A stretch of DNA of 64,000 bases from Frigoribacterium sp. PvP032 (lineage in GTDB: Bacteria > Actinomycetota > Actinomycetes > Actinomycetales > Microbacteriaceae): the NCBI RefSeq assembly GCF_017833035.1, contig NZ_JAFIBM010000001.1, forward strand, positions 2,315,762-2,379,761, given 5' to 3'. Positions 19,689 to 33,408 of the stretch are shown piece by piece. The position numbers were made by a program, and so were the translations under genes. The notes under the pieces were generated by a model that searched no databases, was not told where the DNA came from, and saw only the letters and a program-made list of their open reading frames with translations. Each line of letters starts with the position of its first letter. Positions within the stretch are counted from its first letter, which is position 1.

Positions 19689-20076
19689 GGGACACACGCC
19701 CCTGCCGCGAGGCCGTCAGACCGTAGGAGGCGGCGCCTGCGTGCGCACTCTGCACCCCGCGATCCCCGCAGCTACGGGCCTCGGGCGGGGCTCGCGCCCT
19801 CCCCCTCCCGCCCCCGAAGCTTCACGCACTCGTTACACGGTCGTGCCCCACGCCCCGACCCAAGCGTTTCCGGCACCCCCTCCCCTTGCTCTCGAGTGGT
19901 CAAAATGGGTTCTTGCCAGGCCAATGAAGAACAGCATCTGCCCACTCGGTCAGTTTTTGGGTGCTGAAGCGATCGCGCCTGCGATCGCTTGGCTCGGCGT
20001 CATCGAACGCCCTCGCGGCAACCTCGGAGGGCGGCGCCCTCACATAAGCCGACATCGCGACTTCGCGACTACGACC
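19689..20076. other. Gene-free boundary region at the left edge of the accessory island
   Basis: No credible coding frame. Base composition changes here from very GC-rich to more mixed near 19880. A stem-loop with 9-bp perfect arms (AGCGATCGC/GCGATCGCT, 19978-19999) could end transcription of the gene to its right. No copy of the tRNA-Pro 3' end was found here, so no attachment site can be named. Confidence 0.5.
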
Positions 20077-20724
20077 TCAGGCTGACGACGACCGTGTCTC
20101 TCTGACCCGGGGAGGCAGCACACCGGCGGCATATGCAGCGTCAGTCGCAAGAACCGCCATGGTGTCGCAGAACGACCCGATAGGCCCCTCCCATTGCGAG
20201 CCGAACTGCGAGTTCCCGATGAGGCAACCGGCCCTCACATGGATGCGAATGAGAATCTGCTCGACTTCCTCGAGAGTCGGTGGCTCCCCGCTAGCGAGCC
20301 GCTCAACAACGCGGTCGACACTTTCGCCGTGCCAATCCTCGGCGTTGATGTGGGCCGGCAACTTCGACTTATCAAACGATGTCGGCTCGTAGCGGAAGGG
20401 CCGCCTTTCCCCCTCGTTCTCGCTCATGAGAGCCACGAAACCACTGACGATCTTCCGTTCGTAGTCCAGCGACTTCCAGGTGTCCTCTTCGCGATGGCGC
20501 TGGAGTGACGCTGCTTTCCCGACGTAGAGATCGTTTCCCTCGGAATCGATGATCACGTAAAGATTTGCAGAACTCAGAGGCTCATCAACCAGGCGTATCC
20601 CGGCACCGCTTGCTATGGATTTCAGGATTGCAACCTTCATCAGCTTGGCCAAACCGCTTCTCCGCCCGATTGCACTAAATTGTTTAGCGTCATGGTCCAC
20701 CAGCGCCCGCGAAAGTCGACCCAT
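20077..20724 (-). CDS. GIY-YIG-like domain protein, function unknown
   Basis: 215-residue protein. Residues about 55-80 read NLYVIIDSEGNDLYVGKA followed by SLQRHREE, which resembles the first strand pair of the GIY-YIG nuclease fold (two aromatic triplets, G-K, then a basic helix). The remainder (SVDRVVERLASGEPPTLEEVEQILIRIHVRAG) is not recognised, and the usual catalytic Glu cannot be placed. Start choice is uncertain: ATG 20724 is used; TTG 20736 and ATG 20640 are alternatives, and none has a strong ribosome site. Lower GC than the core genome. It could be a nuclease of the defence island or a decayed relative. Confidence 0.5.
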   Translation of the reverse strand: MGRLSRALVDHDAKQFSAIGRRSGLAKLMKVAILKSIASGAGIRLVDEPLSSANLYVIIDSEGNDLYVGKAASLQRHREEDTWKSLDYERKIVSGFVALMSENEGERRPFRYEPTSFDKSKLPAHINAEDWHGESVDRVVERLASGEPPTLEEVEQILIRIHVRAGCLIGNSQFGSQWEGPIGSFCDTMAVLATDAAYAAGVLPPRVRETRSSSA

Positions 20725-20989
20725 GCAGGAACGCAACCGCGAGGCCAGAAGAGCATCTCTCTCGATGCTTTATCGGTTCTTCGAGAGCCAAGGTAAGCCA
20801 GAGCTCCAGGCCCGTTCCTCCGATCTGATGCCAGCTCCTAGATGCCCCATGCACTCGTCGTCAGCTTCGTCCCATCGAACGCGGCGTCAGCACGTCACCC
20901 GAACGGGGCGTCTCATGAACACGGATTGCGTCCGTCTAGTCGGACCCTTTCACCTAGTCTCATGAGAAACCGTCACAAAGGGGACAACG

Positions 20990-22084
20990 ATGGAGTTTGC
21001 CGAGCGGCTCGCCGCACTTGCACTGAAGGTCAAGAACCAGCGCGAGGCCATTCAGACCGAGGAAGCGACAAAGAACGCGTTCATCATGCCGTTCATCTCG
21101 ACGATCCTCGGCTACGACGTGTTCAACCCTCTCGAGGTGGTACCTGAGTTCACGGCCGATGTCGGCGTGAAGAAGGGCGAGAAGATCGACTACGCCATCA
21201 TGCGAGACGGCGAAGTGCAGATCCTCATCGAGTGCAAGAAGTCGACTGAGCCGCTCAAGATCGAGCACGCGTCGCAGCTCTTCCGCTACTTCGCCGTGAC
21301 CAATGCGCGGATCGCCGTCCTCACCAACGGCGAGAGCTACCACTTCTACACGGACCTCGACAAGCCGAACCGCATGGACGAGAAGCCCTTCCTGGTGCTC
21401 GACCTTTCGGACATCGACGAGACCCTCCTCCCCGAGCTCAGCAAGCTGACGAAGGACGTCTTCGACCTCGACTCGGTCATCAGCGCCGCCGAAGAGCTGA
21501 AGTACGTGGGCCAGCTCAAGCGTGCCATCGCGGCTCAGTTCCGTGACCCGTCCGACGACTGGGTCAGGTTCGTCACGACCCGTGTCTACGAGGGCTCATT
21601 CACGCAGAAGGTGCGCGACCAGTTCACGCCTCTCGTCACCAAGGCGTCGAAGCAGTTCCTGAACGACCAGGTCAACGACCGTCTCAAGACGGCGCTCGGC
21701 TCGTCGAGCTTCCCCTCGATCGCTGTCGATGCGCCTGCAGGTGCTGTCACCAGCGAGCCGGCCGTCGAGGCGGACCTCGATCGGGACACAGAGACGGAGA
21801 CGACCCTGGAGGAGCTCGAGGGCTACCAGATCGTCAAGGCCATCGCGTGCAGCGAGGTCAAGCCCCAGCGCGTCGCTCACCGTGACGCCAAGTCCTACTT
21901 CGCGGTCCTGCTCGACGACAACAACCGCAAGCCGATCGCGCGCCTCCACTTCAACGGCAAGAAGCAGAAGTACCTCGGCATCTTCGACGCTGACAAGGTC
22001 GAGACCCGGCACGCGATCGAGTCGCTCGACGGCATCTACGAGCACGCGGACGCGATCCGCAGCGTCATCAAGTCCTACGCCTGA
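20990..22084 (+). CDS. Stand-alone type I restriction HsdR N-terminal-domain nuclease (HSDR_N_2-like)
   Basis: 364-residue protein of the HsdR_N type without helicase motor or partner HsdM/HsdS genes. The nuclease core is visible: Asp67 in KIDYAIM and Glu81-Cys-Lys83 in QILIECKK form a PD-(D/E)xK site, followed by ASQLFRYF and AVLTNGESYHFYTD typical of this domain. The C-terminal 90 residues (KSYFAVLLDDNNRKPIARLHF) look like the small fused domain often attached to such orphans. AAAGGGGA lies five bases before ATG 20990. It is monocistronic, convergent with the DUF726 gene. Such orphans are frequent in mobile regions; a defence role is inference. Confidence 0.82.
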   Translation: MEFAERLAALALKVKNQREAIQTEEATKNAFIMPFISTILGYDVFNPLEVVPEFTADVGVKKGEKIDYAIMRDGEVQILIECKKSTEPLKIEHASQLFRYFAVTNARIAVLTNGESYHFYTDLDKPNRMDEKPFLVLDLSDIDETLLPELSKLTKDVFDLDSVISAAEELKYVGQLKRAIAAQFRDPSDDWVRFVTTRVYEGSFTQKVRDQFTPLVTKASKQFLNDQVNDRLKTALGSSSFPSIAVDAPAGAVTSEPAVEADLDRDTETETTLEELEGYQIVKAIACSEVKPQRVAHRDAKSYFAVLLDDNNRKPIARLHFNGKKQKYLGIFDADKVETRHAIESLDGIYEHADAIRSVIKSYA

Positions 22085-22097
22085 CGTAGGTCACCCG

Positions 22098-22161
22098 CCC
22101 GACGGCTTCGCATGACGTGAGGCCGTCGGGTAGAAAAAAAGCCCCGGCCATCGGCCGGGGC
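22098..22161. terminator. Back-to-back terminators between convergent genes
   Basis: CCCGACGGC/GCCGTCGGG (22098-22130) follows the HsdR_N gene. GCCCCGGCC-A-TC-GGCCGGGGC (22141-22161), followed on the reverse strand by seven T residues, is a classical intrinsic terminator for the DUF726 gene. Confidence 0.85.
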
Positions 22162-22165
22162 ATCT

Positions 22166-23803
22166 TCAACGAAGAACCACGTTCTCGTGGTACCCGTGGT
22201 GGTTGTCGACCGCGTCCGAGACGTCGATGTTCTGCAGCCTCTCCGGCAACGGGCCCGTCTTCGCCTTGAAGCCGACGAGGCCTGCGGCCGTCTTCCCTGC
22301 CTGGGCGACTGCGTAGACGTACTTGAGAATGCCGTCCTCAGCCGAGTGGTAGTTGAAGACGGCCCCATCGACCGCGTCTGCCAGTCCCGACCATTCCCCC
22401 TTGGCGCCGATCGCAACGCCGAGCAGGTGGACCGCTTCAACGCGAGGCCCGCCTGGCTTGGTCCCGAGCGCTTGCGCTGCCACGACCATTGCACGAGCAC
22501 CGAGGCTGTGTCCGACGAGGATGAAGGAGCTCGTCTCGGTCCGAGCGAGAAGGTCGGCCAGTACCACGCCTGTCTTGTCCGCGCGGTTCTTGGCGACGTG
22601 CCAGGGGTTCTTGGCGATGTCGGCTGCAGCAAGGAGGGGCCCGAGGGGACCGATCTTCTTGGCCGCCAGGCGAGCCGCCTTGGCCGCCGCTTGCTGCAGC
22701 GCTGCCCCGCCCATGACCTTTGCTGCACCCACCCCGCCCAGAAGCCCAAGGTGCTTGAGCTCGCGAGCGCCCCAGTGCACGCGGTAGACCGGGGAGCCGG
22801 GGTAGCGAGCAGTCACGATGTCGCGCCACTCGCCCCACCCCTTTCCGGTCTCGCTGAGGAAGCCGTTGCACACGATGACGGGGGTGCCGGTGCCGCCCTG
22901 GAGCATCTCGATATGGAAGGACTTGTCCTCCTGCACGTAGGCGTTCGCGACTGAGGCGCTGAGCGCACCGCCGAGCGCTCCTCCGAGGGCGGTGAGGACG
23001 GCGGTGCCACCGGCCATTCCCAAGCCACCTGCAGCGATAGCTCCGCCCCCCAGGAAAGCCAAGCCCGAAGCCGTGGCAGCAGCGCCCGAATAACCGGTGA
23101 TGAGGACGCCAAGGGCACCTCCGATGGCAGGGGCCGCGAGCAGGCTTGCGGGAATGGCCAGGGCCACACCCGCGAGGCTGAACCCCACGATCTTGGTCAC
23201 ACGGCTCAGCTTGACCTTGTCGTAGTCAAGGAACTCCGCGTAGTCGCCGAGAGAGGCCATCTTGCGGTCGATCTTCTCGAATCCCGGAATCTCATGGCGG
23301 TGCTCTGCGCAGAAACGCGGCATCGTCAGGGGGCCGCGACCTCGAGAGGCCATGTTGTCGCACGTGGGACCCGCGCAGGGCAGGGTCGGTGAGCCGCAGT
23401 TGCCGCAGAGATATGCCGGGACTTGGTTAAAGGGCCTGTCCGTCTTGGCGTGCTCGGCGAGGGTGAAGCAATCGGAGCACCAGGCATGTTCGACCTCACC
23501 CGTGAGGTCGTCCGTCAGCTCTGCGATCCACTCAGCCACATCACGGTGCGCCTCAGCCCGCTTGCTCGCTGCTTTCTGCTCTTCCTCAGAGGGCAGTTGC
23601 ACTTTCATCTTGGTGAACCGGGCATGGGCCCACGCGTTGTCGATGAGAGCGCCGTTGCTAGCGAGCACCTCCGAGCCCTCAACGACTGGTGCGAGATCGT
23701 CATCGTTGTTGGTGAGGGTCAGCGACTGACCATTGGGGCTCGTGACGGTACACACGAGAACGTCCCCGTCGAGGAGACGGGCGACGACCTGGGATTTCGA
23801 CAT
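22166..23803 (-). CDS. DUF726 / TMCO4-like alpha/beta hydrolase with zinc ribbons and membrane hairpins
   Basis: 545-residue protein. The N-terminal 60 residues precede a Cys/His-rich segment (CSDC, CGNC, CAGPTC, CAEHRH, about 105-170) that looks like two zinc ribbons. Next come two or three very hydrophobic Gly/Ala-rich helices (about 215-315), then an alpha/beta hydrolase domain with nucleophile Ser in LVGHSLGAR (about residue 430) and a candidate His in the C-terminal NHHGYHENV. Start ATG 23803 (MSKSQVV) was chosen because upstream frame shows no coding character. It is probably membrane-attached. The combination of ribbons, membrane hairpins and lipase-like domain suggests a membrane-damaging effector, but this is inference. 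Confidence 0.72.
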   Translation of the reverse strand: MSKSQVVARLLDGDVLVCTVTSPNGQSLTLTNNDDDLAPVVEGSEVLASNGALIDNAWAHARFTKMKVQLPSEEEQKAASKRAEAHRDVAEWIAELTDDLTGEVEHAWCSDCFTLAEHAKTDRPFNQVPAYLCGNCGSPTLPCAGPTCDNMASRGRGPLTMPRFCAEHRHEIPGFEKIDRKMASLGDYAEFLDYDKVKLSRVTKIVGFSLAGVALAIPASLLAAPAIGGALGVLITGYSGAAATASGLAFLGGGAIAAGGLGMAGGTAVLTALGGALGGALSASVANAYVQEDKSFHIEMLQGGTGTPVIVCNGFLSETGKGWGEWRDIVTARYPGSPVYRVHWGARELKHLGLLGGVGAAKVMGGAALQQAAAKAARLAAKKIGPLGPLLAAADIAKNPWHVAKNRADKTGVVLADLLARTETSSFILVGHSLGARAMVVAAQALGTKPGGPRVEAVHLLGVAIGAKGEWSGLADAVDGAVFNYHSAEDGILKYVYAVAQAGKTAAGLVGFKAKTGPLPERLQNIDVSDAVDNHHGYHENVVLR

Positions 23804-23865
23804 AGAAGAAATACTCTCAGTTTCAGCAGAGTGGCACCGACAGAAGCAGGGTGAGAACGTGATGA

Positions 23866-24320
23866 ACTGTTGAATCATCTTGCGAGCTAACGCAGGCTCA
23901 CTCCGAGTCGAACGGCGGTCCTGACGCAGCGGCACTCACGCGTCAGCGCAGACGACTTGTCACTGTCGGGCAGCACCAGCAGACCTACCAGGGAGCCACC
24001 ATCGACTTCCCCGTTCAGGTCATCGCGTTCGATCTGACACGAGCAAGTATTGAGGATGCCCTGGCGAACCACGGACCGGGTCCAATCTTGACCTACTCGG
24101 CGACGGTCGACGGTAGGCGCTTCTCGGTCAAGCAGGCCCTCTCAATCACCACCGGCCTCGGCCACGACGAAATTTCGATTCGGGCCGTGCTGAGACCGTG
24201 CTGACGCGCGTCGGCTTCGATCACGTCAGCACCTCTGCCGAAGAACGGCAACGCGTGCCGCAGTCCGACCGCACCTTCGCGGGGGTCGTCTGGGGGCTGG
24301 CCCAGTCGGACGCCGGTTAA
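23866..24320 (+). pseudogene. Degraded unidentified gene
   Basis: A 112-codon open frame (23866-24204) has good coding character but no start codon for its first 70 codons; it contains YQGATIDFPVQVIAFDLTRA and ILTYSATVDGRRFSVKQAL. Beyond a frameshift near 24190 coding continues as ETVLTRVGFDHVSTSAEERQ to the TAA at 24318. The VDGRR..VKQAL...LTR.GF pattern recalls small modules seen at the ends of restriction-related proteins, but I cannot name a family. Missing start plus frameshift mark it as a remnant. Confidence 0.4.
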
Positions 24321-24929
24321 GAGGAAGCTCCATCCAGCAAGCTGTACCTCCCTGGCTGTGCCCAAGGCGTCGTGGCGCCGCGCCGCATCAGACAGCCAAC
24401 GAGACGTCTCGAGCGTGGTCCGCCGCACTTGACTCCGACCTGCGCGTCGTCGTCGACCCAGGATGGTGCGCTGACTGGGTCGCCCTTTGCGGCTGCATGG
24501 ATCAGCACGCGCCCCTAATGTATTCGGCGAGCCCACCGAGGACTGGCCGACTCGAACCACCGGCGATTGAGATTCGGCCCGGGTCATCCTCGAACCTGGC
24601 CTGGTCCGACGATCTTCGATCCTCGACGGTCGCACAGTGACGTGGGAGGCCGAGAAAGCTCGAGAGCTCCTGACCGCGATGAGCGCCCCGGCTTGGCTGC
24701 CACTTTCGGCGACCGACTCTTGCAGCAGCTGGACGGCCGACCACGAGCACCCGCCCCACGCGGAGAGGTGGGTCCAAGAAAACGCCGTTGGTGCTGAATC
24801 CAGGGGTACCGATCACAGTTCCGGCACTACCGAGCGCGACCGCGACAGCACGAACTTGCCTTCTGTCTCGACAACCAATCGGCCTTGGCCGCTCTTATGG
24901 CGTTTCGTCGCTGCGCCGTCGGCGAGCGA
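24321..24929. other. No intact gene; decayed sequence
   Basis: Only short frames, none with a ribosome site or recognisable motif. Patches with coding-like codon use on the plus strand (for example around 24430-24640, DLRVVVDPGWCADWVAL) suggest further remnants of genes lost from the island. Confidence 0.4.
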
Positions 24930-25825
24930 TCAGTCGAAGAAGTCGGCGTCGACCTCGACAGCTGTGTAGGTGTTGCGCACCTGGACACCGACCCGGTACT
25001 TGATCATTAGTGCGATGAGTCGGGGCCCATCAATGAGCACGACGCGGGATTGAACGTTGCTGGTATAGCTGACCGCGGCGGGCGTAAAGGCAGACGTCGT
25101 CAAGAACACTCCGCGGGTGGCGTCAAAGCCGTGTAGGGCTCCAACGAAGGCTTGGATGGTTTCTCGGCTGATATTGTTACCGGCCTCCTACCTCTTGGCC
25201 TGGATGTAGACCCGGTCAAGCCCGAGGGCGTCCTGGTCGATGACCCCATCGATGCCCTCGTCACCAGTCCCACCAATGCGTTTACCGCGCTGCTCAGCAC
25301 CTCCGTACCCCATCTTGAGGAGAAGGTCGACGAGGGCCTGTTCGAAGAAGTCGGGGTGGCTCTCACGAAGACGGTTGAGGAGCTCTCCTCCCACTTCAGC
25401 CTCAATACGGCTGATGCCATCTTCGATCTGCTCGATCTGCTCGATCGGGTCGAGGATGTCGGCAGCTGCCTGGACAAGCTCACCATCCACCAATTCGGCC
25501 CGACGTTCTTACGAGCTTCGTTGGGCCAGAAAGGTGCAAAGATCTCGCGCGCTTTGGCGTAGTCAAAGCCACCCGGGTACTCCACCAGCGCGCTGCGTCC
25601 GCGGTCGTTGATTGCGTAGTGGCCGCGGCTGGGCCTGTCGATCGCGCTGGCCTTCGTCAGATGACTAAGCGCCCATCCCAGCCGCTGCTCATACCGGTAT
25701 CCCCCAGAGCGAAGCGTCTCGGCCCGGGCCTCCGACGTGAGTCCGGCTCTCTCGGCCGCTTCATCGAAGACGTCTTTGCGATGCAGGGTCCGACCGTCCT
25801 ATAGGACTCGCAGTACAGGAATCAC
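24930..25825 (-). pseudogene. mrr: Inactivated mrr-type methyl-directed restriction endonuclease
   Basis: Mrr family (N-terminal winged helix, C-terminal PD-(D/E)xK domain) in pieces. From the GTG at 25825 the frame reads VIPVLRVL and then TAG; it continues DGRTLHRKDVFDEAAERAGL, YEQRLGWALSHLTKA and GHYAINDRGR. A frameshift near 25510 moves it to the frame with FEQALVDLLLKMGYGG, IGGTGDEGIDGVIDQDALGL and VYIQAKR, where a TAG replaces the expected aromatic residue. The rest, EAGNNISRETIQAFVGALHG and RGVFLTTSAFTPAAVSY, runs to TGA at 24930. Catalytic residues (GDEGIDG, QAKR) are still readable. Two nonsense codons plus one frameshift: the span of 896 nt is not a multiple of three. Confidence 0.88.
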
Positions 25826-25930
25826 GAATGCCGGCTAAATTGGGACGATCGAGACTGGGGCGTCACTAGGAGTGCTCACCAACCCACCATGCCTCAATCT
25901 GGACACACGACGGGCCCTGCGGGACTGCTG

Positions 25931-26131
25931 TCAGTAAAATGACTCAGTCTCTTGGACCTTGCAAGGTACGTGAACTGCCTTGAGGTAGATCATGTCGAAG
26001 TCGATCGGAGGGAGTGGGACGAGACTCTGTTGGCGTCGCCAGCCGTGGCAGGTCCGTTCTATGCAGGGCACGCAGGCCCAAAAAGTGCCCGCCCGGGAAG
26101 AATTAACGCTGCCTACTACAGGCGTTGACAT
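25931..26131 (-). CDS. Possible small Cys-containing protein downstream of the DUF262-HNH gene
   Basis: 66-residue frame starting ATG, 40 bp after the DUF262-HNH stop and on the same strand. It contains FWACVPCIERTCHGWRR, three Cys and a His that could bind a metal. No family recognised and no convincing ribosome site, so it may be a remnant rather than a gene. Confidence 0.25.
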   Translation of the reverse strand: MSTPVVGSVNSSRAGTFWACVPCIERTCHGWRRQQSLVPLPPIDFDMIYLKAVHVPCKVQETESFY

Positions 26132-26171
26132 TCCTCGTAGGCCCCACCTCTATTCAGCAGAGTTCACAGAC

Positions 26172-27320
26172 CTATACCCCGGATTTCTTCCGGTTATCGT
26201 CCTTGCATAGCATCTGGCAGTTGGATGCGATGGTTGGGCCACCCTTGCTCCATGGAGTGATGTGGTCAGCCTCCATTTCTTTAATGTCAAACACCTTCTC
26301 GCACACAGGGCAGACACCCTTCTGGCGGGTGAATGCCAAGCGTCTTTGTTGAGGGGAAAACGCACGGATGGACAGGCTTCGCTCGTCGCCAGATAACAAA
26401 TAAAGGTAAATGCCCTTATTGCTCGTAACGTCTTCGTCTTCCAAGAGGCGGACAACCTCGGCCTCGAACTGGCTCGACTGCTTCGCCGTGATGGAGTCGG
26501 AATACTTATTGTAAAACAGGCCCCATTCGAGCCCGTCCATCTCGCTCCGATAATCAGGAAAAGTAGCCTTTACCCAGGCCATGACCTTTTTAAAATAGTT
26601 CCACAAATGAGTGGCGTCGGCATTGTTCTGGTGGCTAGCCATGTAAACCTTGATATCATCATCCGTGCCTTTGGACGCGACGTTGCCGGCGTGCGCGGCC
26701 CAGCGGATGACCGTCTCTAAGTAATCCTGGCGGTCCGGGTCACCCCTGAGGTAGTCCTTGAAACCGAGATGTGCCGGACCAGAGAACCGTGAAAAGTAGC
26801 GCTTGGCATCGGCGAGCCAAGGGCCAACATACGCTGCATTGCGTAGTTCCTGGGGCTTCAGCACCATGCCCGCGATATTGATGGTTTCGAACCATTCCAG
26901 CTGCTCTTCCGCCGACCCCTCGCAGACGTACACGTCGAGCTCGTAGTCTTCGAAAGCCTTGACCATCTCGGGAGTTGAAGTCAGATTATGCCGGAACCGC
27001 GCGTTCCCCTTCCACCGAACGGAGAAGGCATTGGTGGCGTACTGACAAATGGAAAGGATTCGCTGCTGGCCATCGAGCACCTCGAAGCTCGAGGTGCCGT
27101 CGGCAGCAACTCTCTTAGACCAGTAAATCGTATTAAGAGGAAAGCCTTTGAGTACGGTCTGGAGTACAGCCTCACGCTGCTTGTCTTTGTAGACAAACTC
27201 GCGCTGGAACGGCGGTCGAACATCGAGCCGACCACCAAGGGCGACGATGCCCTTATCCTGGTTGTCGCTGTATCCATCAATCAATTCCTTGATTGTAACG
27301 GTAGTCTTGCTGATGATCAC
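26172..27320 (-). CDS. DUF262 (ParB-like) domain protein with C-terminal HNH nuclease domain
   Basis: 382-residue two-domain protein. The N-terminal DUF262 domain has RPPFQREFV (35-43) and FEVLDGQQRILSI (79-91); the DGQQR motif is the nucleotide-hydrolysing signature shared with GmrS and SspE. The C-terminus is an HNH endonuclease: Cys337-x2-Cys340, Asp352-His353 (EADHITPWSKGG), Asn367 and Cys372. Between them is a helical region. GTG at 27320 overlaps the methyltransferase stop (GTGA), so both are made together. Known DUF262 relatives restrict modified DNA in phage defence; here the partner is an adenine methyltransferase, suggesting a modification-sensing or restriction-modification pair. 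Lower GC than the core genome. Confidence 0.85.
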   Translation of the reverse strand: MIISKTTVTIKELIDGYSDNQDKGIVALGGRLDVRPPFQREFVYKDKQREAVLQTVLKGFPLNTIYWSKRVAADGTSSFEVLDGQQRILSICQYATNAFSVRWKGNARFRHNLTSTPEMVKAFEDYELDVYVCEGSAEEQLEWFETINIAGMVLKPQELRNAAYVGPWLADAKRYFSRFSGPAHLGFKDYLRGDPDRQDYLETVIRWAAHAGNVASKGTDDDIKVYMASHQNNADATHLWNYFKKVMAWVKATFPDYRSEMDGLEWGLFYNKYSDSITAKQSSQFEAEVVRLLEDEDVTSNKGIYLYLLSGDERSLSIRAFSPQQRRLAFTRQKGVCPVCEKVFDIKEMEADHITPWSKGGPTIASNCQMLCKDDNRKKSGV

Positions 27321-28372
27321 TTTATCATCCCCCCTGGATGTCTATTGCGGATCAGGACTCGGAAATAAGGTGTTCTTACTATTCCCTCACGCGTAAATTT
27401 CAAGTCTCTTCCATCACTTCCGTGACGGAATTGGACAATTTCGTATGGGCTATCTGGGATCCATTTTTCAAGGAAGGTGATTGGGACACCCATCACCCCG
27501 TCATAGTCTGCGGGAATTTCCACTACTCTTGACACTTCGATAGCATCGTAATTGTTGTAGGTTGGGTATAACCCCTTGGCGAGTCCTTCCTCGCGCGTCT
27601 GGAATGGGATAGGCATGTCAGCACGCTTGTCGACGACCAGATTTGTAAACCAGCACCCTGACTTGAGCCGGAAGCAGACAGTGCCGTCAACAATCTTATA
27701 GGCATCTCCGTGTTTTTTGTTAGCAACGAGCCAGTCCGCATATTCCGCAGTGACATCGAAAAGCATCTCCTTGCTCGACGACCGCTTACCGGTCCAGAGT
27801 TTTCCAGCCTTGATCAAGGCGAACGTCTCTTTGTATGTAATAGCGTTAGTGTTTCCAATAATTAGAAACTTTTTATCATATTCGAATAACTGAGCCAGGT
27901 ATTCCCGAAACAACGAGAACGGTGGATTTGTCACGACGATGTCTGCACGCTTCAGCAACAGAATGGACTCGGGATTGCGGAAATCTCCATTGCCCTCTAA
28001 CGGGGTTACGAGACGATTTTCAGTGAGGGGCAGGGCACTCTCGTAGGCACTGATGGCATACTCAGCATCGGCGTTGCTGGTGAGCTCAATCTTGTATGTG
28101 GCCTCATCCGCATAGAAATGTGTTGCAATGAGGCCGGCAAGGCCGAGATACTCGAAATTCATGGCAAAGTACCGGAAGAAGTTGCTCGAATCTGGGTCGT
28201 CACAGTTGCAGTAGACAACCTTGCCCGCGAACTGATTGCCTGCAGGCGTTCCCCCGAGATTCTCATCCCGCGTGTAGTGCGCCAGCTCCAGCTCGACCTC
28301 GGAAAGCCTGGTGTAGAACTCGTCGTACTTGACGCTCTTCGCCCTCGTGAGGGTCCTGTTGCCTGTTGCCAT
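27317..28372 (-). CDS. Adenine-specific DNA methyltransferase, EcoRI-methylase family
   Basis: 351-residue N6-adenine methyltransferase. Visible: N-terminal KYDEFYTRLSEVELEL, the SAM-binding region KVVYCNCDDP with DSSNFFRYF (51-69), and catalytic motif IV TNPPFSLFREYL (148-159), followed by FLIIGNTNAITYKE. The family includes M.EcoRI and many methylases on phages and islands without an EcoRI partner. Start ATG 28372 is preceded by GGGACAGTG; upstream frame lacks coding character. Its stop overlaps the DUF262-HNH start. It probably marks host DNA so that the coupled nuclease ignores it, or marks the target the nuclease recognises; sequence alone cannot decide. Confidence 0.88.
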   Translation of the reverse strand: MATGNRTLTRAKSVKYDEFYTRLSEVELELAHYTRDENLGGTPAGNQFAGKVVYCNCDDPDSSNFFRYFAMNFEYLGLAGLIATHFYADEATYKIELTSNADAEYAISAYESALPLTENRLVTPLEGNGDFRNPESILLLKRADIVVTNPPFSLFREYLAQLFEYDKKFLIIGNTNAITYKETFALIKAGKLWTGKRSSSKEMLFDVTAEYADWLVANKKHGDAYKIVDGTVCFRLKSGCWFTNLVVDKRADMPIPFQTREEGLAKGLYPTYNNYDAIEVSRVVEIPADYDGVMGVPITFLEKWIPDSPYEIVQFRHGSDGRDLKFTREGIVRTPYFRVLIRNRHPGGMIK

Positions 28373-28619
28373 CACTGTCCCGTTCTCGCGTCGCCTGTGG
28401 CAGCACGCTAATAAGCAGTAGCTTACAGCCCGCATCTGCGCCGTAGAAGCTCTGGAACGTCTAATCAAAGCCGTCCCAAGACACTGTGGGATTTTGAGCA
28501 CGGCCTCAGCTCCGATTCCGGGATTTCTAGAGTGATAGCGGAACGCAGGTAAGCATAAACATAAAGTATCGGAAAAACTATCTAATATTTGGTCCTGTTT
28601 GTTAGTGACCTCTCAATAG

Positions 28620-28938
28620 TCTTGCTTTCAACTTGTTGAGGAGCTTGGGAGGTTTTCCTCAGCGGCTGAAAGGGGGACTTCCACATTTGCGAGCAAGGGG
28701 GTCTCGATGAGATCGACCTGGACCAGACGCACAACGACGAGCTGATTAGGGCTTCCACCCGGTGCCTAGCAGCCGGCCGGAAAATGCAGGGGCTAAAGAC
28801 AACTCGCGCTTCGGGCGAGAAGTCGGACCCGACGGCGATGCAAAAGATTCGCGAGTGGGCCGGCAAGAGAGTCACACCGTCTCAAGCCGCGGCCGGATCT
28901 CGGCTGTCGTGCGAGACGCTCCCAGAGCCGCTCAGTAA
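28620..28938 (+). pseudogene. lsr2: Decayed lsr2 (H-NS-like xenogeneic silencer)
   Basis: Lsr2 pieces appear in order on the plus strand in shifting frames: QLVEELG near 28629, SAAERGTSTFASKGVS near 28660, then after a shift EIDLDQTHNDELIRA and AAGRKMQG, KTTRASGEKSDP and KIREWA, and after another shift ESHTVSSRGRISAVVRDA ending at TAA 28936. The last two blocks match the Lsr2 DNA-binding domain (REWA...RGRI). No start codon and at least two frameshifts, so it is not functional. The island probably once carried its own silencer. Confidence 0.75.
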
Positions 28939-29151
28939 CTGGTGCCGACAAGCTAGTAGGAAGGGACGCCACTGGTCTATCCCCAACGCGGTCCCAGTAC
29001 GATCGCGGACATCACTACCCGTCACATCAATGGCGCCCCGACCGAGTACATGACCTCTCGGGTCCACAGCGCAGGAGTCGACCGAATCGAAAGCGGTCCC
29101 AAGAGTCGCATCACTAGGGCTGGCGACGCGACCGCCCGCACTTCGCTGTGT

Positions 29152-29370
29152 CTAGAGCGATATTTTGCGCGCGATGTATCCGGCCCTCTTAATGTAGACA
29201 TCGAAGTAACGACCGACGCTAGGGGCTGTCATCAAGCTCGCGTGGACGGAACTTGGGACCGACAGGTACTGGTAGACACCGCCCTTCTTGAAAGCGACCT
29301 CGAGAGTTTGGGTGGTGGGGTCGTAGCCAACGGCAGATAGGTGGCTACTGACTACAGGCACACGAATCAC
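29152..29370 (-). CDS. KTSC-domain small protein
   Basis: 72-residue KTSC-domain protein, named for a domain also found at lysyl-tRNA synthetase C-termini; role unknown. The pattern is clear: VSSHLSAVGYDPTTQTLEVAF, then GGVYQYLSVP and a final SVGRYFDVYIK. AAGGAG seven bases before the GTG at 29370 supports the start, which also overlaps the stop of the DUF2130 remnant frame (GTGA). It appears intact although its neighbour is broken. KTSC proteins are frequent in mobile regions and phages. Confidence 0.78.
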   Translation of the reverse strand: MIRVPVVSSHLSAVGYDPTTQTLEVAFKKGGVYQYLSVPSSVHASLMTAPSVGRYFDVYIKRAGYIARKISL

Positions 29371-29628
29371 TTGCTAGCTCCTTCGGTTTCACTTGCAACT
29401 GCGAGCTCGGTAAGCTCGGCGTCCTTTGCAGCTGCTGTTTGCTGCTGTGAACAGGAGGCCTTCGCACCCGCGAGCACCGTAGCACTCCTCCTATTTTGTT
29501 TCGCTAGCTCGAAGCGTTCGTGACTTGCTTTTCAAACTCGCCGTAACGAACTTGCATAGCGATGTTTGTATACTCGGCCTCATTCACCGTAAATGTTTTC
29601 TCGCCATACGGGCACTTAATTTATGCAT
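29367..29628 (-). pseudogene. Truncated, frameshifted DUF2130 gene
   Basis: From an ATG at 29628, inside the end of the OLD gene, a frame shift leads into KCPYGEKTFTVNEAEYTNIA and MQVRYGEFEKQV, the N-terminus of DUF2130 proteins (CP.C.K.F..DEA.Y..I..QVR..EFE). It hits TAG after TNASS. The neighbouring frame carries on with ELAKQNRRSATVLAGAKA and QQQTAAAKDAELTELA, the coiled-coil part, to TGA at 29367. The rest of the family's usual 400 or so residues is absent. A 36-codon frame from GTG 29477, behind AGGAGGAG, could still be translated and couple to the KTSC gene. Confidence 0.65.
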
Positions 29629-31708
29629 TTAGCTGTGCCTCAGCTGTCGAGCTCAACACGGAGATTGGGGCCTCTGAGGCGGCTGGTGCTTCGGCGGGCA
29701 CGTCTTGGCCGCTAAGTGCTGCGATCTCTGTAATCACAGCCCTCAAGATTTTCGGAAGGTCCGCCTCGGCGGCCGCGAATACCGCGTTGCGGTAGGCGAG
29801 TAGGTTCTTGTTGTTGCGCAACGCGAGGGTTATTCCTGCCTCTGTGAGCGCCTCATCGAAGCTTGGCCACTCGCCAAGCTCCTCCTCGATGTCGTCTTTC
29901 CATACCGTGAAGTCGCCGCACACGAGACTCGGGTTCCCGAATGAGTAGGGTAGTGAACCGTGAGTGGCTTTAGACGTGGCAGGCAGCGCTCCAACTAGGC
30001 CGTCCGTTGCTTTCCTATGCGAATCGCGGGCTTGCGTCTTCAGCGCTTGAATCTCGTCGTCTGTCTTGTCCTTGTAAGGCTTGCGGTCAGATGTTCCGAA
30101 ATCCCCATCCGCCAGCACATAAGTCGGCACCTTAAGCGCCGTCAGAATCGCTCGAGCAACGCGGAGTCCGCCCTTGCCCTCCACCGATAGGACCGTCACC
30201 CCCAAACGGTCCAAGTCCTTACCGAGCTTCGTTGCAACCGCTTCGAGGACGATTCGGTCGGTCTGCCCCTCTACAAGGACTACTGCGTCAGCGAAGAAGC
30301 CTTCCGAAAACTCTGTTGGCACACTTGACACGATGGCTTTTTGAACTTTTTCCTCATCTAAGCCAGATGTCAGAGCTACGGATCCGACTGAGGCCGTTGC
30401 CGCCGAAGTCTCACCGTTCTTATAGGTGAAACGGTGGAGTGCTCCGAACTGCTCCGGCTGAATAAAGTACGGGCTGTGTGTAGCGAGCAGAACCTGCACG
30501 CCCGGCTGAGCACTGAGTTCAAGGAGTGTGCGCGCGAAAGAACGAGCACGGACCGGGTGCTGGTATATTTCCGGCTCTTCGACGGCGACAATAATGCTTG
30601 GTAGTCCACCGAGAGCGTCCATGAGACGCGCCTCAGCTGCGGCCTCGTCTTCACCATCCTGCACCTTGTGTGTCTTGCGCGTGAGGTCCTCGTCGGGGAC
30701 CATCGCCTGAAACATCGAAATCATGACGGCGCGCTGTACGCCGTGGCCCTGTCGTGACACGTCGTTCGTAGCGCCCGAGATCGTCACTGCTGTCGTGATC
30801 GATGGATCAAGCTTTGGAGCGAAGTCCGGCACCGTCGGCGTAAGTGTGACGCTCGCGTTCGGAATGAGGGAACCAAGGCGTGAATTGACCCGGGCGGCTT
30901 GAACGCCAGTGGCCAGTTCAATGCTCTTGCGAATGTCGCCGGTCAGTTCGCTAACGGCTGCCGCATGCTTCAGCAGCCATGCAGCCTGGGCGCGCGCACT
31001 GGCTGCTGCCATGAACGTGCCAACAAGTTCGGTCAACGCAGTACCCCGAGACGCGGTACCAACTTCGCCAGAAATGCTTGTGGCCGCCGGTATGAGCACA
31101 AATCTTGCGCACTCTCGCAAAACATTCGCTCCATTCCAGCCCATCATCTGGTTGGCGTCATCGTCCGCGACCTCCACGAGTTTCGAAACGTTCACGAGTT
31201 CCGCTTCCCAGGCTGCAAGGGCAGCCACAATCGCATCCTTGCTCGCGGAACTTCCGAGTTCTGGCAGTTCACTATGGACTGCTCGCAAGTTCCGGTAGCC
31301 CTGCCTGCGCAAGGCGATGCCCTGATCAGCTCGCACCTCGGCGAACCCGGGGCCCTGCTTCGCGTTTCCGACCGTCTTCGTCTGTTTGGTGTCGGCGTAC
31401 CAGGTTCGACGGACCTCTGCGCGATCGCTTCGCCCGTATTGCTGCAGGCGAGCACGATCCATGGCCGTGAAATCCGTGAAAGTGACCGATACTTCGACGG
31501 TCGCTCCTGGATCTAGGGCAACACCCTCCTTCCATCCGTGGACATCTATCTCACTCAGCGGCGTGCCGTTGAAAAACCAGTCCAGGGCGTAAAGCACCGA
31601 GGATTTGCCTGCACCGTTTGCGCCGATAAAAGCTCCATAGTTCTCCACTTGTAGCGTGACGTCTTTGAGACTCCGATAGTTGCGAATGGTGATGGCTGCA
31701 ATACGCAT
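29621..31708 (-). CDS. OLD-family ATP-dependent nuclease (AAA ATPase plus TOPRIM)
   Basis: 695-residue class 1 OLD-type protein. The N-terminal RecF/SMC-like ATPase has IRNYRSLKDV, Walker A GANGAGKSS (29-37), Walker B IIVAVEEPEIYQHP (about 375) and the switch His in LLATHSPYF (about 407). The C-terminal TOPRIM nuclease has VLVEGQTDR (Glu about 478) and VLADGDFG (Asp about 533). The first OLD protein, from phage P2, blocks other phages. No UvrD-like helicase follows, so this is not a two-gene Gabija system. GGGGGAAG precedes ATG 31708. It lies alone at the tRNA end of the island; a phage-defence role is likely. Confidence 0.88.
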   Translation of the reverse strand: MRIAAITIRNYRSLKDVTLQVENYGAFIGANGAGKSSVLYALDWFFNGTPLSEIDVHGWKEGVALDPGATVEVSVTFTDFTAMDRARLQQYGRSDRAEVRRTWYADTKQTKTVGNAKQGPGFAEVRADQGIALRRQGYRNLRAVHSELPELGSSASKDAIVAALAAWEAELVNVSKLVEVADDDANQMMGWNGANVLRECARFVLIPAATSISGEVGTASRGTALTELVGTFMAAASARAQAAWLLKHAAAVSELTGDIRKSIELATGVQAARVNSRLGSLIPNASVTLTPTVPDFAPKLDPSITTAVTISGATNDVSRQGHGVQRAVMISMFQAMVPDEDLTRKTHKVQDGEDEAAAEARLMDALGGLPSIIVAVEEPEIYQHPVRARSFARTLLELSAQPGVQVLLATHSPYFIQPEQFGALHRFTYKNGETSAATASVGSVALTSGLDEEKVQKAIVSSVPTEFSEGFFADAVVLVEGQTDRIVLEAVATKLGKDLDRLGVTVLSVEGKGGLRVARAILTALKVPTYVLADGDFGTSDRKPYKDKTDDEIQALKTQARDSHRKATDGLVGALPATSKATHGSLPYSFGNPSLVCGDFTVWKDDIEEELGEWPSFDEALTEAGITLALRNNKNLLAYRNAVFAAAEADLPKILRAVITEIAALSGQDVPAEAPAASEAPISVLSSTAEAQLNA

Positions 31709-32196
31709 CGCGACCTAACTTCCCCCATGAATTGCCTGGTCTACGGGGCTCGCAAATAGCCGCGAACCTAGCCACAACTTAGCGGCAGGTCTCGGGTTGT
31801 CAAGGCAATATGGGAGAAAAAGTATCCCCGCCCCGAAGTCCGACGGGCCCAAGTTGGTCGCTTGCAATAGGCAACAAAAGTCGATTTACCTCGGGTGATC
31901 AGCTGCTGATACCCATTCCGTGAACCACGGCGACTCGACGGTTGACATGCACCCGGACCAGGCAAATCTAGGAGAACAAGTAGGCCGGGTACGGACGAAT
32001 AGTTTTCGGGCGTCTGCTCGAGCGAAAGAAAGAAGCCCCTGCTTCCTTGGATCTCCAAAGATCAACGGGGCCTCTTGGCTGGCTATACCGGCGAAATATG
32101 AACTTACGTGGCACTGTCGCCACGAATAGGTAGCCTTGCCGTGCACGCAAAATAAAAACTTTGCTAAGTCTATAGAGTGGCCAGTTAGCTAAATGG
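31709..32196. other. Gene-free region between the OLD gene and tRNA-Pro
   Basis: No credible coding frame on either strand. AT-richer than the core genome (for example AAAATAAAAACTTTGC near 32150), so it belongs to the island. It should contain the OLD promoter and, if the island inserted at the tRNA, one end of the insertion, but I see no direct repeat of the tRNA end. Confidence 0.5.
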
Positions 32197-32270
<74 letters not shown>

Positions 32271-32478
32271 AGAAATTCTCTCCGAAGAGTGAACCTCTTG
32301 GTGTTGCCCCGACCGAGGCAACTCGATCAGCATAGCGGATCCGGAGACCCGGGACGAACCATGCCAGCCAGCCGAGCCCGACGGGCGAGCCCCAGACGGG
32401 CACAAGCCTGACCGACCACTGTTGCGCCCCGTTACAGCCAGCGCGACAGCACCAGCCACCCCGCCATACCGTCGGGAC

Positions 32479-33408
32479 ATGCCCGCCTCCTCGACGACCG
32501 CCTCCCGCGCTCTGCCGTTGACCCTGCGCGGTGTGGGCCGGCGGTTCGACCGGCCGGTGCTGCACGAGGTGGACCTCGACGTGGCCGCCGGCGAGATCGT
32601 CGCCGTGCTCGGGCCGAGCGGGTGCGGCAAGTCGACTCTGCTTCGCCAGCTCGGCGGACTCGACCAGCCCGACACCGGCACCGTCCGGATCGGCGACGAG
32701 CCCGCCCGCCACGCCGACCAGCGCTGCGCCGTGGCCTTCCAGGAGCCGCGCCTCCTCCCCTGGCGCACCCTCCGCGACAACGTCGCCCTCGGCCTCCCGA
32801 AGCCGAGCAAGCCGAGCTCCAAGACCGGCACGGCCAGCAGCAGCAGCCGCACCACCGCCGCCGCCCCCAAGCTCACGAAGGCCGAGCGCGACGCCCGCCT
32901 CACCGAGCTGCTCGACCTCGTCCACCTCGGGCCGGCCGGCGCCCGCCGCCCCCGCGAGGTCAGCGGCGGCATGGCCCAGCGCGCCAGCCTCGCCCGGGCC
33001 CTCGCCCGCCAGCCGGCGGTCCTCCTCCTCGACGAGCCGTTCGGCGCCCTCGACGCACTCACCCGCCTCCGCATGCAGGACCTGCTCCTCGACGTCCACG
33101 ACGCCCTCCCCACCACGGTCGTCCTCGTCACCCACGACGTCGACGAGGCCCTCTACCTCGCCGATCGCATCGTGCTGCTCGTCGACCTGAGCCAGCAGCC
33201 TGCCGACCAGCCCGACCCGGCGAGCGCCGACGCGACGCACACCGACACCGCAGGAGGCGCAACCAGCATCCAGCGCATCGTCACGGTCCCCGGAGCCCGC
33301 CGTCGAGACCGCGACGCCCCCGAGCTCGCCGTCCTCCGCCAGGAGCTGCTCGAGGGCCTCGGCGTCCACCGCGTCCCCGCGGCCAGCAGCGGCACCGCAC
33401 GCTCCTAG
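32479..33408 (+). CDS. ABC transporter ATPase, sulfonate/taurine/nitrate type (SsuB/TauB-like)
   Basis: 309-residue ATPase. Motifs: Walker A LGPSGCGKST (about 50), Q-loop AFQEPRLLPW, signature SGGMAQRASLARAL, Walker B VLLLDEPFGALD, switch His VTHDVDEAL. The short Q-loop segment and EPFGALD are typical of the SsuB/TauB/NrtD branch. A Ser/Thr/Lys-rich insertion of about 25 residues follows the Q-loop, an Ala/Asp/Thr-rich one sits near the C-terminus. I use ATG 32479; the frame is open further up. It is the first gene of a three-gene operon supplying energy for uptake of an organosulfonate or similar anion. Confidence 0.9.
   Translation: MPASSTTASRALPLTLRGVGRRFDRPVLHEVDLDVAAGEIVAVLGPSGCGKSTLLRQLGGLDQPDTGTVRIGDEPARHADQRCAVAFQEPRLLPWRTLRDNVALGLPKPSKPSSKTGTASSSSRTTAAAPKLTKAERDARLTELLDLVHLGPAGARRPREVSGGMAQRASLARALARQPAVLLLDEPFGALDALTRLRMQDLLLDVHDALPTTVVLVTHDVDEALYLADRIVLLVDLSQQPADQPDPASADATHTDTAGGATSIQRIVTVPGARRRDRDAPELAVLRQELLEGLGVHRVPAASSGTARS

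Follow-up and report, generated by a model that had tools for sequence, protein, structure and literature searches.

A constant DUF262-HNH protein beside an EcoRI-family methylase with exchangeable modules: a probable two-gene restriction-modification system

How can a restriction nuclease remain matched to its methylase when the parts of the methylase that appear to read the target are exchanged and the nuclease is left as it was? This question is raised by two overlapping genes in a stretch of 64,000 nucleotides from Frigoribacterium sp. PvP032 (assembly GCF_017833035.1, contig NZ_JAFIBM010000001.1, positions 2,315,762 to 2,379,761), which we call the window. The first gene encodes an N6-adenine methyltransferase of the EcoRI family (M) and the second a protein with a DUF262 domain and an HNH nuclease motif (R). 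From the comparison of their relatives we consider it probable that the two form a restriction-modification system in which M would be both the methylase and the reader of the target and would aim R, a nuclease gated by nucleoside triphosphate (NTP). Judging from the sequences, R itself does not seem to carry a sequence specificity that would match.

Both genes are intact and, like all their features given below, lie on the minus strand. M has 351 amino acids and runs from an ATG at 28372 to a stop ending at 27317 (27317..28372), and R has 382 amino acids and runs from a GTG at 27320 to a stop ending at 26172 (26172..27320). The stop of M and the start of R overlap in GTGA (27317..27320), by which the translation of the two is likely coupled. 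M matches the Pfam family EcoRI_methylase (PF13651; expectation value E 1.1e-96, 324.6 bits against a cut-off of 26.4) and contains the catalytic motif IV NPPF at residues 149-152 (27917..27928), of which N149, P151 and F152 are kept in 153 of 153 aligned Ms and P150 in 152. A fold search with M returned generic S-adenosylmethionine methyltransferases, and sequence searches of the PDB with M and its profile returned nothing informative. R matches GmrSD_N, the DUF262 family (PF03235; E 4.6e-20, 73 bits against 33.2), with DGQQR at residues 83-87 (27060..27074), and its C-terminal part matches HNH (PF01844; E 1.2e-11), with the nuclease motif and cysteines C337, C340, D352-H353, N367, C372 and N376 (26184..26312). 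In 153 aligned Rs, H353 and N367 are present in all, D352 and C337 in 152, C340 and C372 in 151 and N376 in 150; DGQQR is also present in all 153, partly by construction because the motif was included in the search patterns. The invariant DGQQR argues against a cleavage by R that would be free of NTP. The Pfam scan of R gave GmrSD_N and HNH-type families only, with no helicase and no DUF1524 match. An earlier reading of the window from its letters alone (the sequence-only reading) had named the methyltransferase with its NPPF, the GTGA overlap, the DGQQR and the HNH residues, and all of these were confirmed from the sequence. PADLOC assigns near-full-length Type II models to both proteins, MTase_II to M (PDLC03297, 1.2e-91) and REase_II to R (PDLC03418, 7.8e-116, residues 1-380), so the prediction of restriction-modification for this pair is not new.

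Two parts of M are highly variable. The central module (residues ~196-240; 27653..27787) is a putative target-recognition module, and the C-terminal module, or tail, covers residues ~312-351 (27320..27439). Conservation in the bins of residues 201-240 is 0.38 and 0.30, among the lowest, and in those of residues 321-351 it is 0.22 and 0.20; residues 101-120, outside both modules, are also poorly conserved (0.32). The central module was cut between W-x-G and W-[FLMY]-T-N and could be parsed in 145 of 153 paired Ms, where single linkage at a score of 0.40 gives 30 classes, of which 17 have a single member. The window's M belongs to class 6 together with five other members, and its central module is, by sequence, not of the EcoRI type. 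No covariation is seen between the tail and the central module (the difference was reached in 473 of 500 permutations), and they are therefore treated as separate modules. Both may set the target sequence of M.

R stays constant while these modules change. In the 145 loci with a parsed central module, the identity of R correlates with that of the M backbone at 0.70 and with central-module similarity at 0.14 (partial 0.045), that is, the divergence of R follows the M backbone and not the central module. Among the locus pairs, which are not independent events, the central modules fall short of the similarity threshold in 40 of the 60 with Rs at least 80% identical and in 7 of the 11 with Rs at least 90% identical. 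The excess of identity between Rs of the same module ranged from z -2.4 to 2.6 in 37 sliding windows along R, and no segment of R clearly tracks the central module. The same was seen within a single bacterial family, that of locus L058, in which R was found in 76 of 200 genomes. There, 36 loci were scored, from the best 39 of 104 places after three near a contig end were skipped (L352 not counted), and M is present in all 36; 31 of them were kept, five being without a parsable module or a full R. Unlike central modules were found in 18 of the 37 pairs with Rs at least 90% identical, in a set that is only partly independent of the first, as at least five loci are shared (L058, L063, L069, L072 and L043). 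For example, a single residue separates the Rs of L318 and L320 in the matched part, with central modules that score 0.23, and the Rs of L058, L063 and L069 differ at 4-6 columns with unlike central modules.

The cleanest case is that of L327 and L328, two loci from two genomes, on contigs of 118 and 245 kb, in which the Rs are two residues apart. At the DNA level their Ms differ at 3 of 450 columns in the 5' part, 121 of 261 in the central module, 3 of 159 in the middle and 46 of 106 in the tail, so that 167 of 367 columns differ within the two modules, and the variable residues 101-120 look unchanged. R differs at 4 of 1077 columns and the 3 kb upstream are 96.6% identical. Here recombination appears to have swapped just both modules and spared R, and such an exchange is not easily an artefact, since it is seen in long contigs with near-identical flanks. 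As the modules are exchanged and R is constant, R is unlikely to read the sequence itself and is more likely aimed by M.

This bears directly on whether the pair could be a classic Type II system, in which R would read the same sequence as M and would be blocked by methylation. If R read its own sites, an exchange as between L327 and L328 should deprive those sites of protection, and the reading survives only if the modules leave the core target unchanged, or if R reads no more than a core that all the targets share. It agrees with the PADLOC labels, with the M-then-R operon on plasmids and phages and with the distribution of the two genes described below, in which M without R is common and R without M is not. 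The pair indeed consists of an adjacent cognate methylase and endonuclease. Yet the Type II label also implies independent recognition by R, and our data appear to argue against it, as R is constant while both modules are exchanged; this is an indirect judgement, made from module exchange and not from targets. In Type II systems, R and M recognise DNA in different modes, as passages of PMC4081073 describe. We regard the classic reading as rather unlikely.

A further argument comes from the Ms that do stand beside a true Type II enzyme. Ten distinct Ms partnered with R.EcoRI or a homologue were found, four on plasmids and six on viral contigs (the R match being full length in three of the six and partial in three); one of the plasmid Rs has no annotation more specific than restriction endonuclease but shares 88% identity with R.EcoRI. 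The backbones of the ten are 60-85% identical, their central modules are at least 71% identical, and all share one central class, with GFIVPxHYxLYGTE. When both sets are placed in a single alignment and compared by the same backbone measure, the central module is common to 45 of 45 pairs of R.EcoRI-partnered Ms (21 of 21 for the seven with full-length R.EcoRI), compared with 993 of 7733 DUF262-partnered pairs at backbone identity 0.55-0.85: 614/5483 in the bin 0.55-0.65, 270/1842 at 0.65-0.75 and 109/408 at 0.75-0.85. Of the DUF262-partnered pairs above 0.85, 12 of 13 have it in common. With separate backbone measures for each set the counts are 621/5605, 277/1925 and 113/407 against 45/45. 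The tail behaves alike, being shared by 36 of 36 R.EcoRI-partnered pairs and by 145 of 5207 DUF262-partnered pairs (86/3624, 43/1338 and 16/245 by the same bins); it was unparsable in 35 of 153 Ms and in 1 of the 10 R.EcoRI-partnered Ms (49 and 1 in another tail analysis). The EcoRI system has the same methylase family as our pair and differs from it in three ways: its R is the EcoRI enzyme and not a DUF262-HNH protein, its order is R then M and not M then R, and its M modules are constant where here they are exchanged. Between the window's M and the one that accompanies R.EcoRI on the E. coli plasmid pCol-4, identity is 43%. In a midpoint-rooted tree of M made without the central module, the R.EcoRI-partnered clade sits among the DUF262-partnered Ms; as the tree has no outgroup, this placement is only suggestive.

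The connection of R to this one methylase family is close. We scored 160 R loci, the best 80 of 461 confirmed places in species genomes and the best 80 of 176 viral places, and 157 of them have a whole or partial M no more than 1.8 kb from R; in the other three (L073, L107 and L137) R is less than 220 nt from a contig end, just upstream of R. Fifteen of the 160 are cut by a contig end, and among the 145 assessable loci M is absent in none and broken beside an intact R in five (L032, L044, L084, L089 and L171). In the reverse search by M, limited to the best 80 of 281 viral places, 4 loci were cut at a contig end and the 76 assessable ones comprise 34 with an intact R, 7 with a broken one and 35 with none; in 7 of these 35 an EcoRI-type R stands in its place. 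M therefore often occurs without R, and R without M was not found where this could be assessed. The records behind the best 80 places in species genomes include, by their titles, Actinomycetota, Bacteroidota, Bacillota, Saccharibacteria, Gracilibacteria, Fibrobacter, Spirochaetaceae, Nitrospirales, Acidobacteriales, Elusimicrobia, Verrucomicrobia and a Pacearchaeota bin. Since the same pair recurs in several phyla, the pairing is not due to chance, and the proposal of the sequence-only reading that this is a conserved two-gene system with DUF262-HNH in the place of the EcoRI enzyme was borne out: the pairing is neither unique to this strain nor missing from close homologues of R.

Among 396 actinobacterial genomes R was found in 8, always with M beside it, and M in 11; in one of the 8 (G131, locus L028) both genes look degraded, and the three genomes with M only have an intact M with R not adjacent (G407), a fragmented M (G357) and an M at a contig edge (G477). 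Within 99 relatives, R-like matches occur in seven: the source genome, L003-L005, which are full length and have M, with a break close to the end of the M of L003, and L006-L008, which are partial. The pair is also carried by plasmid or phage records of Pseudomonadota, Bacteroidota, Bacillota and Actinomycetota and by a Flavobacterium phage. R matched 174 plasmid and 174 phage records, over more than 80% of its length in 43 and 4 of them; the shorter matches, which are the majority, are other DUF262 proteins or were not inspected. M is present in all 12 of the plasmid and phage regions inspected and broken in two of them, by a break of frame in L010 and as a shortened M beside an IS256 transposase gene in L015. 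Two plasmid pairs adjoin drug-resistance genes, with optrA between M and R in L012 and mef(F)/msr(G) downstream in L011. On a Lactiplantibacillus plasmid (L283:2180-4282), a gene of 700 codons annotated as Dcm has an N-terminal match to the EcoRI-family methylase and is apparently a fusion of two methylases. In the open-licence part of PubMed Central we recognised no paper on this pair of M and DUF262-HNH, and passages of PMC7785942 do not link RAATTY to a DUF262 pair.

The order of the two genes is almost fixed. Removal of loci with a repeated R sequence and of the copies of the window itself brought 191 rows down to 152 pairs, and M is 5' of R in 150 of them; with a mechanical choice of start codons, 78 of these 150 overlap (47 by exactly 4 nt), and the genes are 0-30 nt apart in 57 and further apart in 15. 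Genes that stand between M and R were rejected as a third component, as they differ between loci; by eye they were named Fic-like (L058, L063 and L072), Bro-N-like (L099 and L104) and HEPN-like (L089). Locus L352 has two copies of R about 5 kb apart and one M. The small reading frame at 25931-26131, which the sequence-only reading had offered as a possible third member, has no match in Pfam, PADLOC or NCBIfam, and among the compared loci only the window's own copies match it (next best E 0.57); we have dropped it from the system.

Another hypothesis is that R itself detects N6-methyladenine, in any sequence, and that this detection permits it to nick incoming DNA that is unmethylated. This would resemble SspABCD-SspE, which also joins a DUF262 nuclease to a host activity that marks DNA, and in which the NTPase of the DUF262 protein SspE is triggered by the host mark, as given in parts of PMC10952713. 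SspE (6jiv, E 0.041) is among the weaker fold matches of R, and a context-blind reader would also tolerate the free exchange of modules. However, a generic reader should accept any methylase, and one methylase family stands at every assessable R locus (other nearby methylases were not searched for). Wherever the contig permits, no full-length relative of R was found without this family, so R is tied to the M protein and not to N6-methyladenine generally; R also tracks the backbone of M. The mark differs as well, being a phosphorothioate in the Ssp system, whereas here an adenine methyl from a single enzyme is expected and the modules of the marker are exchanged. We consider generic sensing distinctly unlikely. 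The sequence-only reading had supposed that R is either inhibited or targeted by N6-methyladenine, which misses the main feature, the exchange of M modules beside a constant R; its interpretation as a whole is thus partly supported.

It can also be asked whether M is an inhibitor or antitoxin of a toxic R, with methylation as a secondary activity. The tight coupling, with M upstream in 150 of 152 pairs, and the presence of at least a remnant of M at every assessable R would fit such a role. Against it, the catalytic NPPF is kept almost without exception, the hypervariable modules resemble target readers, and intact Rs stand beside broken Ms at the five loci named above as well as at L003, L010 and L015, which together make this explanation very improbable. 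Many of the loci are metagenome bins, in which frameshifts may be errors. Ten viral Ms and that of L079 were at first read as broken and then rejected as such, being single reading frames with a profile gap. The M of L095, that of L144 and the R of L065 were set aside likewise, as they have only in-frame TGA, taken as recoded: TGA recoding occurs in Gracilibacteria, to which L065 and L095 belong, and in the viral contig of L144 the in-frame TGA is presumably recoded too. At L032 (Rothia sp. P100), M has one in-frame TAG, R is intact and no second M was found in the genome. This locus is hard to fit to a classic Type II system unless the TAG is read through.

The last alternative would make R a Type IV enzyme of the GmrSD family, acting alone and dependent on modification, with M as an incidental neighbour. 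R shares with GmrSD and BrxU (Type IV, DUF262 and DUF1524) a DUF262 domain with DGQQR and a C-terminal nuclease of His-Me type. The AlphaFold2 model of R is confident (mean predicted local distance difference test score, pLDDT, 92.9), and its top PDB match in Foldseek is BrxU (7p9k, E 9.7e-06, template-modelling score (TM) 0.23); weaker matches are to HNH proteins, ParB, SspE and sulfiredoxin, with E above 0.001 and low whole-chain TM. Moreover, the distant DUF262 proteins of L006-L008, partial matches of 28-31% identity, have no M in their 1.5-kb flanks. Yet R is shorter than GmrSD and BrxU, has HNH PF01844 with no match to DUF1524, and has its own methylase adjacent to it wherever the contig permits (145 of 145 assessable loci, with a broken M in five). 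This explanation is disfavoured and we find it hardly credible.

A more probable mechanism, and the one that we favour, is that M binds a short site via its two exchangeable modules and methylates an adenine there. R would act with M, either as part of a complex or after M has brought it to a site that is unmethylated, and its HNH part would be licensed to cleave foreign DNA when the DGQQR-containing DUF262 domain binds or hydrolyses NTP. The contact between M and R, the gating by NTP and phage or plasmid DNA as the target are parts of this proposal that we infer; it is plausible that methylation of the site would block cleavage. The division of labour would be that of Type III systems with a different effector and no helicase. 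An exchange of target-recognition domains is described in Type I and III systems in parts of PMC3983042, and according to passages of a review (PMC12707154) the activity of the Type III Res may require Mod. Our pair resembles both types in its exchangeable modules in the modification part, which here would read the target, and its constant restriction part. It differs from Type III in that Res has helicase and PD-(D/E)xK domains, whereas R is a DUF262-HNH protein of 382 amino acids and M belongs to the M.EcoRI family.

Several points weigh against this mechanism. The claim that the modules set the target leans on the contrast with R.EcoRI and on mutagenesis reported near C223/H235 of M.EcoRI. 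The contrast comes from a single clade of ten Ms, so that its pairs are not independent, and three of the six viral R.EcoRI matches are partial. In L104, a Rickettsiales bin, M is 68% identical to the EcoRI methylase of pCol-4 and has both EcoRI-type modules, yet its R is DUF262-HNH; since M.EcoRI needs no such partner, a dedicated R-binding surface is not evident. Two regions of R lean toward the module, residues 131-150 (z 2.6) and 1-30 (z 2.0-2.1). An intact R beside a broken M is rare (5 of 145 loci, 2 of the 12 plasmid and phage loci, and L003), which suits a classic system too, and the TM of the best fold match of R is low.

The surroundings of the pair are those of a cargo region (19700-33400) beside a proline tRNA gene (tRNA-Pro; 32194-32270, minus strand), with flanks that are conserved in the genus. 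The right flank was found in 15 of 15 genus-mates and the left in 13; both are on one contig in 12, where they are 11.8-36 kb apart (13.8 kb in the window), and R was found in none of the 15 at E <= 1e-10. The cargo includes an OLD/Gabija-like AAA ATPase with a TOPRIM domain (29621-31708, minus; PADLOC Old, 1.5e-56), which is probably a second defence gene, and a 101-amino-acid Mrr_cat piece (25188-25493, minus; profile positions 2-56 of 115, PADLOC mREase_IV), apparently the remnant of a modification-dependent enzyme. An HSDR_N-type protein (20990-22084, plus) adjoins a DUF726 protein (22166-23803, minus). The variable flank spacing and the neighbouring defence-type cargo indicate a variable, defence-rich spot next to tRNA-Pro; a search around this gene for repeats of at least 14 exact bases, as an attachment (att) mark, found none.

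What does the pair mean beyond this genome? It is an evenly balanced possibility that bacteria, phages, plasmids and at least one archaeal bin share a kind of restriction-modification that stands apart from the others, its DUF262 NTPase-HNH nuclease being aimed by the swappable recognition modules of its EcoRI-family methylase. In that case the EcoRI methylase of the textbooks would belong to the same larger family, and its modules would have become fixed when a self-guided enzyme took the place of the partner. If M does aim R, replacing a few dozen methylase residues could alter the specificity of restriction; the family would then be a two-protein nuclease of natural origin whose targeting can be exchanged, and would offer bacteria a compact means to renew their defence against phages. 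It would also add an NTPase-HNH class of effectors to the methylase-guided systems, correct the Type II label in the defence database and give EcoRI an evolutionary setting.

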